64,000 nucleotides of DNA from Flavobacterium sp. N2038 (GTDB lineage: Bacteria > Bacteroidota > Bacteroidia > Flavobacteriales > Flavobacteriaceae). Made by a program: the position numbers and the translations under genes. Shown piece by piece: positions 50,460 to 55,730 of this stretch. Within the stretch, counting starts at the first letter, position 1. Each line of letters starts with the position of its first letter. The notes under the pieces were generated by a model. That model worked only from the letters and a program-made list of their open reading frames with translations, had not been told where the DNA came from and made no database searches. The DNA is taken from NCBI RefSeq assembly GCF_025947185.1, contig NZ_CP110001.1, forward strand, positions 186,001-250,000. Reading direction: 5' to 3'.

Positions 50460-51400
50460 TCTGTCGTTTTGGTTTTAAAATTCAGCACAAAATAACTTCC
50501 TAAAACTACCGGAAGAACTACGTTTAAAAACCACATTAGCGTGCTGATAAAAATAACAATCCATTCGTTTACACCCAAAATTCCAAAGAAATAAATGGCC
50601 ACACTTCCTTTTACTGCAAAATCTAAAAACTGAAAGGTGGGCAATGACGAAGCCAAAAAGTAAACAGATGTAATCGCGGCCATTAAGGTTAAATAAGGCA
50701 AATCAACATCAAAAGCTAAAAACAAAAAGTAATATTGGTGCGAAAAAACCAAATAGCGACAAATACCTAAAAAGATATTTTTTTGATGCACTGATTTTGG
50801 AATTTCATTTATTTTATGAATCAGTTTTTCAATTGAGTATCCTTTAACTTTTATTTTTTTGACTGAAAACAAAACGACTAAAATCAGCAAAAATCCACCA
50901 AACAAAATCAAAACTGTTTTGGTCGTAATTACATTAAATTGAGCGTTGAAATATAACAGCCCAAATATTCCAAAAATAATAGTCAGAATCATCTGGATTC
51001 CGTTACAGATTAAATTTAGAAAAACTACTCTTTTGGCTTCCGATTTTGAGTAATACAAAGCTTTTCCGGCGTACTCTCCTACTCCATTTGGTGTGAAAAT
51101 TCCGGCCGTCAGAGCTGCTAAAACTTGTTTTGTAGCTTCGTAACCCGAAATTTTATGAATTACTTGTGCCAGATTCTGCCATTTTAAAATCTCAAAATAG
51201 CGATTCAAAACACTCAAAAGCAAGATAAATCCAATTCCTAAAACAGATTGTTTTTTTCGAAACAAAACAATAAACTTTTGCCAGTCCAGTTTATCATTGT
51301 TTGCCAGCTGATTGTAAATAAAATAAAATGCACCGCCAACAATCAAAAGTTTGGCTACAAGAACAAGGAATTGCTTAGCTTTGTGAGGAATTGAAATCAT
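50456..51400 (-). CDS. Lysylphosphatidylglycerol synthase-like membrane protein (UPF0104)
   Basis: 314 residues with about eight membrane helices. Motifs of the LPG_synthase_TM family are seen: LAALTAGIFTPNGVGEYAGK near residue 95 and the C-terminal VYFLASSLPTFQFLDFAVKG. Only the integral domain is present, with no aminoacyl transferase domain, so lipid aminoacylation is not implied. It shares 4 bases with the glycosyltransferase gene, making a two-gene unit for envelope lipid or glycan work (inference). Confidence 0.83.
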   Translation of the reverse strand: MISIPHKAKQFLVLVAKLLIVGGAFYFIYNQLANNDKLDWQKFIVLFRKKQSVLGIGFILLLSVLNRYFEILKWQNLAQVIHKISGYEATKQVLAALTAGIFTPNGVGEYAGKALYYSKSEAKRVVFLNLICNGIQMILTIIFGIFGLLYFNAQFNVITTKTVLILFGGFLLILVVLFSVKKIKVKGYSIEKLIHKINEIPKSVHQKNIFLGICRYLVFSHQYYFLFLAFDVDLPYLTLMAAITSVYFLASSLPTFQFLDFAVKGSVAIYFFGILGVNEWIVIFISTLMWFLNVVLPVVLGSYFVLNFKTKTTE

Positions 51401-51420
51401 GCTGCAAAAGTAATCAAATG

Positions 51421-51500
51421 TGCCAATGAAAATGTGCCAATTTGAAAATTAGAAAATTAGTTAATTTTCCAAACTTGAAACCTTAAACTTGAAACCAAAA
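51421..51500. repeat. AT-rich repeat words before ruvC
   Basis: Contains two AATGTGCCAAT words, a double GAAAATTAG, and AAACTTGAAACC twice; the last recurs at 41228-41250. Non-coding and degenerate. Confidence 0.5.
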
Positions 51501-51504
51501 TCTC

Positions 51505-52059
51505 TTGACAAAAGAACGCATCATATTAGGTATTGACCCCGGAACCACAATCATGGGTTTTGGATTAATTAAAGTAACCAATAAAAAAATGGAATTTCTG
51601 CAATTGAATGAATTACAGCTTTCCAAATACGATAATCATTATCAAAAACTGAAAATAATCTTTGAAAGAACCATCGAATTAATCGAGACGCATCATCCCG
51701 ACGAAATTGCTATTGAAGCACCTTTCTTTGGTAAAAACGTTCAGTCGATGTTAAAGCTTGGTCGTGCACAAGGCGTTGCAATGGCAGCAGGACTTTCAAG
51801 AGATATTCCAATCACGGAATATGAACCTAAAAAGATAAAAATGGCAATTACCGGAAACGGAAATGCCAGCAAAGAACAGGTTGCCAAAATGCTGCAACAG
51901 CTTTTGGGCTTAAAAGAATTGCCGAAAAATCTCGATTCAACCGATGGTTTAGCAGCGGCAGTTTGTCACCATTTTAATTCCGGAAAAGTCATTGCCGGAA
52001 AAAGTTACTCGGGTTGGGATGCTTTTGTGAAACAGAATGAAGATAAAATTAGAAAATGA
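51505..52059 (+). CDS. ruvC: Holliday-junction resolvase RuvC
   Basis: 184 residues with a TTG start at 51505. The acidic catalytic residues are all visible: GIDPGTTIMGFGLIKV (Asp11), IAIEAPFFGKNVQSMLKLGR (Glu), and NLDSTDGLAAAVCHH (two Asp). It cuts four-way junctions made by RuvAB-driven branch migration. The neighbouring hemW gene follows at 85 bases. No ruvA or ruvB is nearby, which is usual in this phylum. Confidence 0.94.
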   Translation: MTKERIILGIDPGTTIMGFGLIKVTNKKMEFLQLNELQLSKYDNHYQKLKIIFERTIELIETHHPDEIAIEAPFFGKNVQSMLKLGRAQGVAMAAGLSRDIPITEYEPKKIKMAITGNGNASKEQVAKMLQQLLGLKELPKNLDSTDGLAAAVCHHFNSGKVIAGKSYSGWDAFVKQNEDKIRK

Positions 52060-52142
52060 GATAATTAGTCAATTAGATAATTTCTTCCAAGCCTAATTTT
52101 CATTATCTAATTATCAAATTGACACATTATCTAATTAAAAAA
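52056..52142. repeat. AT-rich repeat words between ruvC and hemW
   Basis: AATTAGTCAATTAGATAATT and ATTATCTAATTATC words, plus TTGACACATTATCTAATT, echo the spacer at 24495-24572 in both strands. Confidence 0.5.
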
Positions 52143-52143
52143 A

Positions 52144-53274
52144 ATGAGCGGTATCTACATCCATATTCCATTCTGTAAACAAGCATGTCATTATTGCGAC
52201 TTTCATTTTTCGACTTCAATGAAAAAGAAAGACGACATGGTTTTGGCTTTAGCCAAAGAAATTAACATGCGCAAAAATGAATTTGCAGCTGAAACTATAG
52301 AAACCATCTATTTCGGCGGAGGAACTCCTTCGGTATTATCAAATGACGAAATCAATTTTTTAATTTCTGAAGTTTACAAAAATTATACTGTTGCAGATAA
52401 CCCGGAAATTACACTCGAAGCCAATCCGGATGATTTATCTGCGGAACGAATTCTGGAATTGTCTAAAAGTCCAATAAATAGATTAAGCATCGGAATTCAG
52501 TCTTTTTATGAAGAAGATTTGAAGATGATGAACCGTGCTCATAATTCGGCGGAAGCCAAAAAATGTCTGGAAGAAGCTACTAAATATTTTGACAATATCT
52601 CACTGGATTTGATTTACGGAATCCCGGGAATGACTGACGAAATGTGGAGACAAAATATACAAACGGCTTTAGATTTTGGTATTCCCCATATCTCAAGTTA
52701 TGCTTTGACAGTTGAACCAAAGACGGCACTAAGCAAATTAATTCAAACCGGAAAAATTGCAGAACCACAGGACGAAGCGGCTTCCAATCATTTTATGATT
52801 TTGGTTGAAATACTTCAGAAAAATGGTTTTATTCATTATGAATTATCCAATTTTGGAAAAGAGAACTATTTCTCCAAAAACAATTCGGCTTATTGGCTAG
52901 GTAAAAAATATATCGGAATCGGTCCTTCTGCACATAGTTATGATGGCGAAAAAAGAGGCTGGAATATTGCTAATAATTCCTTGTATCTGAAATCAATTCA
53001 AAATAATGAACTTCCAATTGAAACTGAAACCCTAACCGTTTCAGATCGTTATAACGAATACATTATGACAGGTTTACGAACCATTTGGGGTGTTTCTTTA
53101 GAAAGAATTAAAAATGAATTTGGACTGGAATATTTAAATTATCTTCAAAAGCAATCTCAAAAATTCTTAAACGACAATTTACTTTTTATTGAAAATGATA
53201 TCCTGAAACCAACTCCAAAAGGAAAATTTTTAACAGATGGAATCGCTTCAGATTTATTTTATGTAGACTCTTAG
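52144..53274 (+). CDS. hemW: HemW, radical-SAM heme chaperone
   Basis: 376 residues. The radical-SAM iron-sulfur motif lies in PFCKQACHYCDFHF (Cys11, 15, 18). A Phe follows at the position where true HemN has a fourth Cys, which marks HemW. Further motifs are IYFGGGTPSVLS, TLEANPDD, NRLSIGIQSF and DLIYGIPGMT. It is often called coproporphyrinogen oxidase, but members of this branch handle heme. The last 18 codons (53210-53262) are repeated beyond the next gene, see the element at 53277-53928. Confidence 0.92.
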   Translation: MSGIYIHIPFCKQACHYCDFHFSTSMKKKDDMVLALAKEINMRKNEFAAETIETIYFGGGTPSVLSNDEINFLISEVYKNYTVADNPEITLEANPDDLSAERILELSKSPINRLSIGIQSFYEEDLKMMNRAHNSAEAKKCLEEATKYFDNISLDLIYGIPGMTDEMWRQNIQTALDFGIPHISSYALTVEPKTALSKLIQTGKIAEPQDEAASNHFMILVEILQKNGFIHYELSNFGKENYFSKNNSAYWLGKKYIGIGPSAHSYDGEKRGWNIANNSLYLKSIQNNELPIETETLTVSDRYNEYIMTGLRTIWGVSLERIKNEFGLEYLNYLQKQSQKFLNDNLLFIENDILKPTPKGKFLTDGIASDLFYVDS

Positions 53275-53276
53275 GC

Positions 53277-53818
53277 TTAACCGCAAGGTTCGCAAAGGTT
53301 TACGCAAAGCACGCTGTTTTGTTTTTTTTTGTAAGAATTAAACTATATTTTAAATCTCAAATGTTATATTTGAAATTTAATTTTGATTTTATGTCCGAAA
53401 ATGATTTATCTCGAATTGTGTTTCACTCGGCCTTGAAGGTTCATCAATCTTTAGGTCCGGGTCTTTTAGAAAATGCTTATGAAGCATGCTTGTTTTATGA
53501 GTTGAAGAAACTCAACTTATTAGTTGAAAAACAAAAGGCTTTACCCTTAATTTATGAAGAAGTAAAATTAGATGTTGGTTATCGATTAGATATTTTAGTA
53601 GAAAACAAACTAATTTTGGAAATAAAAGCAGTCGATTGTTTAAATGAAGTTCATTTTGCTCAACTATTAACTTATTTAAAACTGACCAATTGCAAACTAG
53701 GATTATTAATAAATTTTAATGTCGCATTACTAAAACACGGAGTCAAAAGAATAGCGAACAATCTTTAACAAAAAACTCTGGCGTCCTTTGCGCAAACCTT
53801 TGCGAGCCTTGCGGTTAA
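53277..53818. mobile_element. Inverted-repeat cassette carrying a GxxExxY gene
   Basis: Arms of 33 bases at 53277-53309 and 53786-53818 are complementary at 31 positions (arm starts TTAACCGCAAGG). They enclose a single gene for a nuclease-fold protein. The left arm starts 2 bases after the hemW stop. A diverged copy of the hemW tail lies 45 bases beyond the right arm. The composition (termini rich in CGCAAAGG) differs from the AT-rich surroundings. No transposase is present, so if mobile it depends on an outside enzyme or on the GxxExxY protein. Confidence 0.6.
53391..53768 (+). CDS. GxxExxY protein, PD-(D/E)XK nuclease-like
   Basis: The start is the ATG at 53391 (MSENDLSRIVFHSALKVHQS), 125 residues. 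The naming motif is in GPGLLENAYEACLFYEL (G-x2-E-x2-Y), and the later YRLDILVENKLILEIKAVD holds the D...ExK pattern of the PD-(D/E)XK nuclease fold. The C-terminal part (FAQLLTYLKLTNCKLGLLIN) is also typical of the family. The substrate and role of these proteins are unknown. It is the only gene in an inverted-repeat cassette inserted after hemW. Confidence 0.85.
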   Translation: MSENDLSRIVFHSALKVHQSLGPGLLENAYEACLFYELKKLNLLVEKQKALPLIYEEVKLDVGYRLDILVENKLILEIKAVDCLNEVHFAQLLTYLKLTNCKLGLLINFNVALLKHGVKRIANNL

Positions 53819-53863
53819 ATTATAACAGCAAAATAAACAACCTGAAAATCGAATTATCAAAAT

Positions 53864-53928
53864 CAACTCCAAAAGGAAAATTTTTGACAGATGGAATTGC
53901 TTCAGATTTATTTTATCTAACTTTATAG
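53864..53928 (+). pseudogene. Detached second copy of the hemW 3' end
   Basis: 53864-53916 repeats 53210-53262 with 51 of 53 bases identical. Translation gives TPKGKFLTDGIASDLFY in both. Both differences are silent (TTA/TTG, ATC/ATT). The final residues differ (VDS against LTL) and the stop here is at 53926-53928. No start or body belongs to it. It marks the ancestral or imported end of hemW next to the cassette. Confidence 0.85.
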
Positions 53929-53965
53929 TAAAAACATTTTCAATAATTCAAAATGTCAAAATATT

Positions 53966-54931
53966 ATGAAAATTACACTACTGGATGATTATCAAAATGC
54001 TGTTGAAAAGCTGGAATCTTTCAAAATATTAAAAGGATTGGATGTTACTATTTTAAATCATACTGAAAAAAATACTTCAAAATTAGCGGAACTATTAAAA
54101 GATACCGAAATTCTGATTTTAATTCGGGAAAGGACACAAATAACAGCAGATTTACTTTCAAAATTACCAAAACTGAAACTTATCAGTCAGACCGGAAAAA
54201 AATCAAATCACATTGATATTGATGCTTGTACAAAACATAAAATTGCAGTTGCAGAAGGAATTGGTTCACCTATTGCTCCATCAGAACTTGCATGGGCTCT
54301 GATCATGAATTCTGTTCGACAAATACCACAGGCGATTCAGGGAATGAAAGAAGGAAAATGGCAAACTAATATTGGTTCTGTCATAAGTGGTAAAACATTA
54401 GGAATTTGGGGTTATGGCAAAATAGGACAACATATTGCCAAATATGCCGACGTATTTGGAGCAAATGTATTGGTTTGGGGAAGCCTTGATTCCAGAAAAC
54501 AAGCACAGCTGGATGGGTATAAAAAAGCGACTTCAAAAGAAAGTTTTTTTGCAAAAAGCGACATCATTACCTTGCATCTCAGACTTAACGAAAGTACTCA
54601 TGAAATTGTAAAAGAGGCCGATCTGAATTTGATGAAACCAGATGCCGTTTTAGTAAACACAGCCCGAGCCGAATTAATAGAAAAAGGAGCATTAGTAAAA
54701 GCTTTAAAAAACGGTCGCCCCGGATTTGCTGCGCTCGATGTATATGAAGAAGAACCGGTTTACGATGTAGATTTTGAATTGCTACAAATGCCAAATGTTA
54801 TCTGTACACCACATTTAGGCTATGTTGAGAAAAACAGCTACGAACTATATTTTGCAAAAGCTTTTGAGAATGTAGTCAATTTTATTCATAAAAAACCAAC
54901 CAATATCGCCAATCCCGAAACATTATTATAA
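53966..54931 (+). CDS. D-2-hydroxyacid dehydrogenase family protein
   Basis: 321 residues. The NAD-binding loop is LGIWGYGKIGQHIAKYADVF (G-x-G-x2-G). The catalytic Arg is in LVNTARAELIEKGAL, the Glu in DVYEEEPV, and the His in CTPHLGYVE. The family reduces 2-keto acids or oxidises D-2-hydroxyacids, and SerA-like phosphoglycerate dehydrogenase belongs to it. The substrate cannot be told from these residues. It lies 31 bases before a cyclase-family gene, probably in one transcript. Confidence 0.9.
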   Translation: MKITLLDDYQNAVEKLESFKILKGLDVTILNHTEKNTSKLAELLKDTEILILIRERTQITADLLSKLPKLKLISQTGKKSNHIDIDACTKHKIAVAEGIGSPIAPSELAWALIMNSVRQIPQAIQGMKEGKWQTNIGSVISGKTLGIWGYGKIGQHIAKYADVFGANVLVWGSLDSRKQAQLDGYKKATSKESFFAKSDIITLHLRLNESTHEIVKEADLNLMKPDAVLVNTARAELIEKGALVKALKNGRPGFAALDVYEEEPVYDVDFELLQMPNVICTPHLGYVEKNSYELYFAKAFENVVNFIHKKPTNIANPETLL

Positions 54932-54962
54932 TTGTAAACAAAGATAAATTTAGTGTTTAACT

Positions 54963-55730
54963 ATGATAGCAAAAATCAATAACTTCGAAATTGACTTATC
55001 AAAACCTATTGATATTTCGATTCCGCTAACCAATACAGACGAAAACCCAATTGCGTGGTATATTGAAAAACCCGAGATAAAACCAGTGGTTTTTGGCGAT
55101 TGGATCGGGAAAGTTTCTGAAGGAAAATCATCTACTAATTTTAATAATATTTTCTTCAATCCGCATGGACATGGGACGCATACGGAATGTCTTGGACATA
55201 TTACCAATGATTTTTACAGCATTAATCAATCATTAAAACAATTTTTCTTTTTCGCTAAACTGATTACGATTGAACCTGAAAGAATTGGAGAAGATCTCGT
55301 TATTTCAAAAGAACAAGTTCTAAAAGCGTTGAGCACTTCGACTCCGCTCAGCATGACAAAAGAAGCATTAGTAATTCGTACAGTTCCAAATGAGAGAGCT
55401 AAAAAATCAAGGAAATACTCCAATACCAATCCGCCTTATTTGTCTGAGGATGCTGCGATTTTCATTCGCGAAAGCAAAATTCAGCATCTTTTGATCGATT
55501 TACCAAGTGTAGATAAAGAGCATGATGAAGGTAAGCTACTGGCGCATAAAGCGTTTTGGAATGTAAAAGACACACATCATCTAAATTCTGATGCGCGATT
55601 GAATGCTACAATTACCGAAATGATTTATGTTCCGGATGAAATAGAAGATGGAAATTATATACTAAACCTGCAAATCGCTTCGTTTGAGAATGACGCAAGT
55701 CCATCAAAACCCATTTTATATAAAATTTAA
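54963..55730 (+). CDS. Cyclase family protein (kynurenine-formamidase-like)
   Basis: 255 residues. The metal-binding motif is in NPHGHGTHTECLGHI (HGHGTHTE), the mark of the cyclase/KynB-like amidohydrolases. Later LLIDLPSVDKEHDEGKLLAH and ITEMIYVPDEIEDGNYILNL also fit. A 16-base word shared with mvaD lies at 55337-55352, coding STPLS inside a variable loop. No kynurenine genes are nearby. The dehydrogenase upstream may share its pathway. Confidence 0.83.
   Translation: MIAKINNFEIDLSKPIDISIPLTNTDENPIAWYIEKPEIKPVVFGDWIGKVSEGKSSTNFNNIFFNPHGHGTHTECLGHITNDFYSINQSLKQFFFFAKLITIEPERIGEDLVISKEQVLKALSTSTPLSMTKEALVIRTVPNERAKKSRKYSNTNPPYLSEDAAIFIRESKIQHLLIDLPSVDKEHDEGKLLAHKAFWNVKDTHHLNSDARLNATITEMIYVPDEIEDGNYILNLQIASFENDASPSKPILYKI
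55337..55352 (+). repeat. Dispersed repeat word inside the cyclase gene (codes STPLS)
   Basis: TTCGACTCCGCTCAGC, identical to 42092-42107. Here the word sits within TTGAGCACTTCGACTCCGCT, where TGAGC and GCTCA can pair into a hairpin. The frame is kept. Confidence 0.65.

Follow-up and report, generated by a model that had tools for sequence, protein, structure and literature searches.

We analysed a 64,000-nucleotide stretch of the Flavobacterium sp. N2038 genome (the window), in which one small gene of the GxxExxY family lies between inverted repeats just downstream of hemW. The locus is composed of the following features.

52144..53274, + strand: hemW, the upstream neighbour of the cassette (TIGR00539, 291 bits over a cut-off of 205; open reading frame)
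53277..53314, + strand: left arm of the inverted repeat, TTAAC followed by CGCAAGG (53282), CGCAAAG (53291), CGCAAAG (53303) and CGC (53312)
53391..53768, + strand: GxxExxY gene for a predicted RecB/Cas4-like PD-(D/E)XK nuclease of 125 residues (TIGR04256, PF13366)
53781..53818, - strand: right arm, the inverted copy of the left arm
53819..53862, + strand: degenerate remnant of a cyclase start (about the first 42 nt), outside the element (score 21 to the intact start)
53860..53919, + strand: second hemW tail, from another hemW lineage, outside the element (direct repeat and comparison with relatives)
53966..54931, + strand: 2-hydroxyacid dehydrogenase gene (PF02826)
54963..55730, + strand: intact cyclase gene (PF04199)

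The initial annotation had described inverted arms that enclose a single GxxExxY gene directly after hemW, and this layout stands: the hemW stop codon occupies 53272-53274, the left arm begins 2 nt later, and the two arms of 38 nt each are 92% complementary with 466 nt between them. The repetition of the hemW tail beyond the right arm could be confirmed as well (53206-53265 and 53860-53919, 60 nt, 93% identity), and the two differences within the 53-nt stretch described at first are indeed silent (TTA/TTG for Leu, ATC/ATT for Ile). The arm consists of CGCARRG units spaced at steps of 9 and 12 nt. Across the genome, 18 sites match the arm motif CGCAAAGNTTYRCGCAAAG with up to two mismatches, both arms counted, as against 0 for the reversed control. 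A search against Rfam at an E-value of 1 met no known RNA family within 51400-55000. Another, gene-less hairpin of the AATTAGATAATTAG type lies in the gap between ruvC and hemW (52047-52136; 35-nt arms, 80%, an 8-nt step by eye), and hemW is thereby flanked by hairpins on both sides.

The gene product is a full-length member of the GxxExxY family TIGR04256 (143 bits, curated cut-off 35) and of PF13366, PDDEXK_3 (137 bits), and the profile searches at E 0.001 found no family beyond these two and no Y1/HUH tyrosine transposase. The earlier claim that the cassette contains no transposase is thus upheld, as its gene has no match to any transposase family. The residues E27, D67, E77-x-K79 and Q91-x3-Y95 supply the E, D, ExK and QxxxY elements of the restriction-endonuclease fold, and the protein, predicted to be a single-domain RecB/Cas4-like PD-(D/E)XK nuclease, is under purifying selection. 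The family comprises at least 8000 proteins, and this genome (4.67 Mb, one contig) has eight GxxExxY genes; in one paralogue (L003), ATA stands where the start codon is expected, without ATG, GTG or TTG, and the gene may be decaying. A role in defence was considered and set aside, PADLOC giving only weak matches to Cas4, Cas4b, RT-associated PDDEXK or PDC-M36A (E 0.0007-0.02). A phage origin was likewise dismissed: the window protein has no PHROGs match at E 0.1, and two of three paralogues match weakly (E 0.00007-0.08). A sequence search of the PDB returned three S100-A8 matches (E 0.4-0.8), which we took as chance.

Inverted arms and repeat units of GxxExxY genes

All eight GxxExxY genes of the genome lie, by eye, between inverted sequences, of eight different kinds; by alignment, seven of the eight reach a score of 20 or more, the exception being L007 (14.5). 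The initial annotation had proposed looking for the same arms around other GxxExxY genes, and the cassette proved to be recurrent. Among 113 usable loci of 118 (L084 and L105 lacking a gene match), 84 beat the best of 40 shuffles and 29 did not. In the larger comparison, 123 of 170 GxxExxY loci scored 17 or more against 10 of 161 neighbouring control ORFs, 47 of the 170 staying below that score; at a score of 25 or more, the counts were 56/170 and 0/161. The 170 loci derive from 174 after removal of L007, a group of one, and of three loci with flanks too short. The score of 17 was reached in each clade: GXA (85/112; its loci are the best 80 of 578 plus the best 30 from the phylum scan), GXB, the clade of L006 (18/30), and GXC, the clade of L005 (20/28). 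Shuffles and neighbouring ORFs replaced a first null, in which the upstream flank of one locus was set against the downstream flank of another, because that null was inflated by repeat types shared among loci.

Each arm is a series of 7-mers, mostly CRCARAG, spaced at steps of mostly 9, 8 or 10 nt. Those of GXA are composed of CRC-N-RRG 7-mers, mostly CGCAAAG, CACAAAG, CGCAGAG and CACAGAG. Four loci that are own copies or close orthologues (L196, L197, L226, L227) were left out before the analysis of clade and step. The mean autocorrelation peaks at 9 nt in GXA, 10 nt in GXB and 8 nt in GXC, and single loci vary, the clade's own lag being the best one in 40/85, 7/18 and 12/20 of them, respectively. 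None of 5000 permutations of the clade labels reached the observed separation of steps, and the same held among the GxxExxY clades alone. A strict period scan at 80% identity showed enrichment at 7 and 8 nt and none at 9 nt, because the 9-nt arrays step irregularly.

The step also follows the protein within GXA. In a sub-clade that includes the own paralogue L002, all 24 spacings are 8 nt, compared with 28 of 332 in the rest. A tree of 89 loci, from which loci with fewer than two unit spacings had been left out, places seven of the ten 8-nt loci in one clade (SH-aLRT 97) drawn from several families, with L105, L125 and L157 outside it; the 8-nt label needs 4 changes on this tree against a shuffled mean of 9.6, and none of 500 shuffles was as low. 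This clade was named from the tree after the arms of L002, L089, L104 and L128 had been seen, those of L111, L114, L120 and L132 being still unseen. Within the own genome, paralogues of different step each stand beside their own arm type. The phyla do not cluster on the protein tree, where their labels need 11 changes (shuffled mean 11.0); this is weak evidence of transfer, drawn from the 80 best-scoring loci, some of them in bins. One contig labelled 'Rhizobium' (L063) branches within Flavobacterium, possibly through misbinning.

The 23 loci at the hemW site, whose synonymous sites are far diverged, permit a comparison of units with spacers. The units are conserved at 0.93 and mismatch between left and right arm at 34 of 472 positions (0.07), whereas the spacers are conserved at 0.70 and mismatch at 76 of 196 (0.39). 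At one unit position, 12 loci have A on both sides and 10 have T on both sides, and left/right agreement is 0.852 within a locus against 0.826 between loci (p 0.002). Conserved units next to free spacers point to a protein that would read the units, more than to base pairing alone.

Gene-less repeats within and across genomes

Hairpins are common between the genes of this genome. In 800 kb of it, a hairpin scoring 20 or more is present in 136 of 425 intergenic gaps, compared with 26 in the best of three shuffles; some are plain terminators and many carry the arm sequences of GxxExxY genes. Outside all eight gene loci, the same 800 kb contain 10 copies of the L001 arm type, 10 of L002, 14 of L004, 28 of L006 and 8 of L008, with shuffled means of 0-1.8, and 64 of these 70 copies lie in gaps. 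The arm types of L003 and L007 have 1 and 0 copies, respectively, and the 26 copies of the L005 type do not rise above shuffles (mean 19.2). Many of the dispersed copies are paired in inverted orientation, as in the gene-bearing elements. In another genome (G104), a query from the hemW site found 84 matching pieces, dispersed as well as clustered, many at the same place on both strands. The share of gaps with a hairpin is 0.11 for divergent, 0.31 for tandem and 0.69 for convergent neighbours.

Gene-less repeats also occupy the hemW site itself. We read 26 hemW gaps without the gene, 20 of them from the top of the ranked match list. Two or more units in arm orientation are present in 22 of the 26, and 96 units point inward against 8 the other way, with a pattern that allows G or T at the unit end. 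The left and right parts are complementary at p 0.05 or less in 21 of 26 gaps, a version of the comparison run after the whole-gap result was known; in the whole-gap self-alignment, whose score counts the short palindromes of shuffles twice, 5 of 26 beat 50 letter shuffles. The exceptions include a gap without units (L334) and one with a GIY-YIG gene (L331).

Among 198 genomes of the phylum, GxxExxY genes were found in 101 and Y1 transposases in 145. The unit pair CRCARAGNNCRCARAG occurs on average 10.6 times in genomes with the gene (n = 101) and 0.88 times in those without it (n = 97), the reversed control giving 0.29 and 0.42, respectively. Five or more pairs are present in 44/101 genomes with the gene, the other 57 staying under five, and in 3/97 without it. 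The contrast appears in six of the seven families compared and is absent in the remaining one (f5). In a joint fit of the number of pairs, in which the genomes are not independent of each other, the GxxExxY gene has t = 9.2 and the Y1 transposase t = 0.8. Gene-bearing genomes with Y1 have a mean of 11.8 pairs (n = 86) and those without Y1 3.4 (n = 15); the own genome has four Y1 matches. We rejected a RAYT-type transposase as the driver: with GxxExxY in the fit, Y1 has nothing to add, even though pairs are most numerous in genomes that have both genes.

Origin of the second hemW tail

To the initial annotation, the second hemW tail was a replacement that the element had brought along, and comparison with relatives did not bear this out. 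We searched 150 genomes of the genus and examined 30 loci, of which 22 besides the window carry the gene beside hemW. Their usual order is hemW, left arm, gene, right arm and cyclase; L028, L033, L034, L035, L036, L039 and L043 have additional sequence to one side or lie on a cut contig. None of the 22 has a match to the dehydrogenase, and the 60-nt copy of the hemW end is missing downstream of the gene from all of them in the stretches examined. At L036, 24-nt copies of the hemW end lie tandemly arrayed upstream of the gene, and L030 has a single 16-nt match to the hemW end with 3 mismatches. Tandem amplification was seen at two loci, in genomes G001 and G104: at L036 it comprises the left arm and the last hemW codons with about 85 nt per unit, and at L035, by eye, the left arm and a spacer.

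The 44 nt ahead of the tail copy are a degenerate 5' end of the cyclase gene. Positions 53819-53862 align to the intact cyclase start (54962-55004) with a score of 21, while the best of 1000 letter shuffles reached 17, and the remnant aligns to locus L018 with a score of 41 over 57 columns, the end of the arm included. The tail copy itself scores 61 to the hemW of L324, a relative without the gene, against 52 to the hemW of the window, and its six best hemW matches all come from relatives without the gene. In two genomes, G004 and G101, the order is hemW, hairpin-like repeats, dehydrogenase and cyclase, with dehydrogenases 81% and 79% identical to that of the window, respectively. From these alignments, the remnant would mark the ancestral order hemW-element-cyclase, and the tail copy appears to be a scar of the arrival of the dehydrogenase and not part of the element. 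Most likely, a block of hemW tail, dehydrogenase and cyclase from a lineage like G004 or G101 recombined in behind the element, because the remnant precedes the tail, the tail fits gene-less lineages and both genomes share the order; the dehydrogenase presumably came in together with the tail copy.

The single gene of the cassette has no match to an integrase, and we saw no sign of the addiction role that the initial annotation had considered. The GxxExxY genes at the hemW site show dN/dS of 0.03-0.12 at dS above 0.5 (19 comparisons), which argues against a recent entry at hemW; the gene is old at this site, and its copy looks inherited. We found no clean pair of filled and empty sites with a target duplication at hemW, because gene-less gaps mostly hold other inverted units.

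A proposed nuclease-repeat system and its rivals

We place the cassette in a large family of intergenic hairpins, as one that carries a gene; the family would constitute a repeat-nuclease system similar to REP/RAYT with an unrelated enzyme, and we give this reading a probability of about 0.6. What has to be explained is the association of arms with the gene, the clade-specific step, the conservation of units, the copies that track the gene and the purifying selection, all of which were observed. In each arm, short recognition units of the form CRCARAG would follow one another at a fixed step, inverted between the two arms, and the GxxExxY nuclease would recognise the units of its own arms together with those of matching gene-less repeats at other places in the genome. 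It might cut or process the hairpin or cruciform in DNA that has become single-stranded, and such processing could keep the repeats alive and let copies reach new intergenic sites, as is thought for RAYT. A nuclease that reads the units and keeps or spreads the repeats is the simplest account of the general arms, the step bound to the clade and the gene-less copies. Several observations count against it: we saw no insertion with clean ends and a target duplication, the copy at hemW looks inherited, some loci lack arms, steps vary from locus to locus, the arm types of L003, L005 and L007 have few or no copies above shuffles, most gene-bearing genomes have under five unit pairs, and pairs are more numerous where Y1 is present. 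RecB-type nucleases, moreover, are not known as enzymes that transpose DNA. Taken together, the findings suggest selfish repeat elements of a kind that has drawn little notice, run by a nuclease and not by a transposase.

Rather unlikely, in our judgement, is a nuclease that reads the arms without spreading them, in which case the arms would serve as operators or decoys, in autoregulation or in a host function, and the copies would spread by another route. Such a role fits a gene long kept at the hemW site under strong purifying selection, the conservation of units suits any kind of binding, and Y1 transposases are common, with the most unit pairs in genomes that have both genes. However, the dispersed copies are often inverted pairs, their number tracks the gene and Y1 contributes nothing to the joint fit. 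We regard it as very unlikely that the arms are hairpins of the ordinary intergenic kind, terminators for instance, with the gene as a passenger. Hairpins do shun divergent gaps, and inverted units are frequent at this hemW site in relatives without the gene, but ordinary hairpins would leave the clade-set step and the excess over the control ORFs unexplained.

An element acting at the RNA level, like the intervening sequence (IVS) of 23S rRNA, with RNase III removing the transcribed hairpin and the ORF either travelling along as a passenger or working on RNA, appears distinctly improbable here. IVS elements are described in PMC4990558 as ORF-bearing hairpins with terminal inverted repeats and RNase III excision, called selfish, of unclear function and origin; the cassette resembles them as a hairpin with terminal inverted repeats bearing an ORF, and S23-type genes, the family of the IVS protein, share the layout in this genome with a 7-nt step. 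Yet the ORF is GxxExxY with a unit step of 8-10 nt and not a four-helix-bundle S23 protein with a step of 7, and both this element, between hemW and cyclase, and those at the hemW site of relatives are intergenic, where excision would be needless. No rRNA was found in 20 GxxExxY loci run against Rfam, and the spacers are often unpaired while the units are fixed, the sequence being kept more than the pairing. A mobile element that entered at the 3' end of hemW with its own replacement tail is hardly credible: the second tail beyond the right arm is what speaks for it, and that tail is missing from the 22 relatives, stands behind the cyclase remnant and belongs with another hemW lineage. The cassette differs from elements that integrate at 3' ends in having neither an integrase nor a replacement tail of its own.

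The closest parallel to the nuclease-repeat reading is REP/REPIN with RAYT, for which PMC3686654 describes a single gene between inverted short repeats, dispersed gene-less doublets and repeats that diversify alongside the cognate protein. The GxxExxY gene likewise lies between inverted repeat copies and has dispersed gene-less doublets cognate to it (L003, L005 and L007 excepted in the 800 kb). The enzyme is, in contrast, a predicted PD-(D/E)XK nuclease instead of a Y1/HUH transposase, and the repeats are arrays of units at a fixed step instead of one tagged palindrome. A REP tag of the GTAG/GTGG type, by the definition in PMC3686654, is absent by eye from both strands of the window arms, which begin with TTAACC. 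As in MITEs and insertion sequences, gene-bearing and gene-less forms share their ends, although the element has no transposase and no clean site pair with target duplication was found at hemW.

GxxExxY is a named family without a function, reported as a CRISPR neighbour in PMC8934634. In the literature searched, which leaves out most subscription journals, we found neither a paper linking it to periodic inverted repeats nor any of six repeat strings. The link between protein clade and repeat step offers a testable function for both partners, including the dispersed CACAGAG- or CGCAAAG-type repeats present in many intergenic gaps, and it furnishes natural protein-site pairs ready for work on repeat recognition. 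It also suggests that REP-like repeat systems have had more than one origin, on unrelated nucleases.

A wider reading, which we hold as a tentative possibility, is a class of mobile or self-maintaining DNA without transposase, in which GxxExxY (8-10 nt), S23 (7 nt) and perhaps GIY-YIG proteins would drive their own hairpins, the protein setting the step; this might account for much of the dispersed intergenic repeats of Bacteroidota and perhaps of other phyla. The own genome has 10 genes for S23-type four-helix-bundle proteins (TIGR02436). The arms of S23-type genes have a 7-nt step, with autocorrelation peaks at 7 and 14 nt and 7 nt being best in 14/20 loci, and 20 of 39 S23-type loci score 17 or more. 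In 800 kb, 33 intergenic arrays of step 7 compare with 0 in shuffled and 0 in coding sequence, and 27 arrays of step 8 with 3 and 0.9, respectively, the coding counts being scaled by length. The units seen at S23-type loci (L047-L056 and L167-L195) are AAGTCNN, GGTTGAT and AAATTCC, and similar arrays without a gene are common between genes.

GIY-YIG genes with repeats are a possible third repeat-nuclease pair. At L331 (genome G007), a GIY-YIG gene takes the place of GxxExxY at hemW, by eye amid inverted CTGAA..TTCAG palindromes. The GIY-YIG gene of L344 is enclosed by inverted GTCATTTCGA..GAAATC repeats (score 43); gene-less copies of these repeats lie at 4428756 and 260319. Of the other six GIY-YIG loci, five score 13.5-19.5, and L348 (20.0) was misread. 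Three near-identical GIY-YIG genes (L345-L347, G000:C1:2573226-2574167) form a tandem row at intervals of 372 nt, and ahead of each lies an apparent 3' part of a tRNA.
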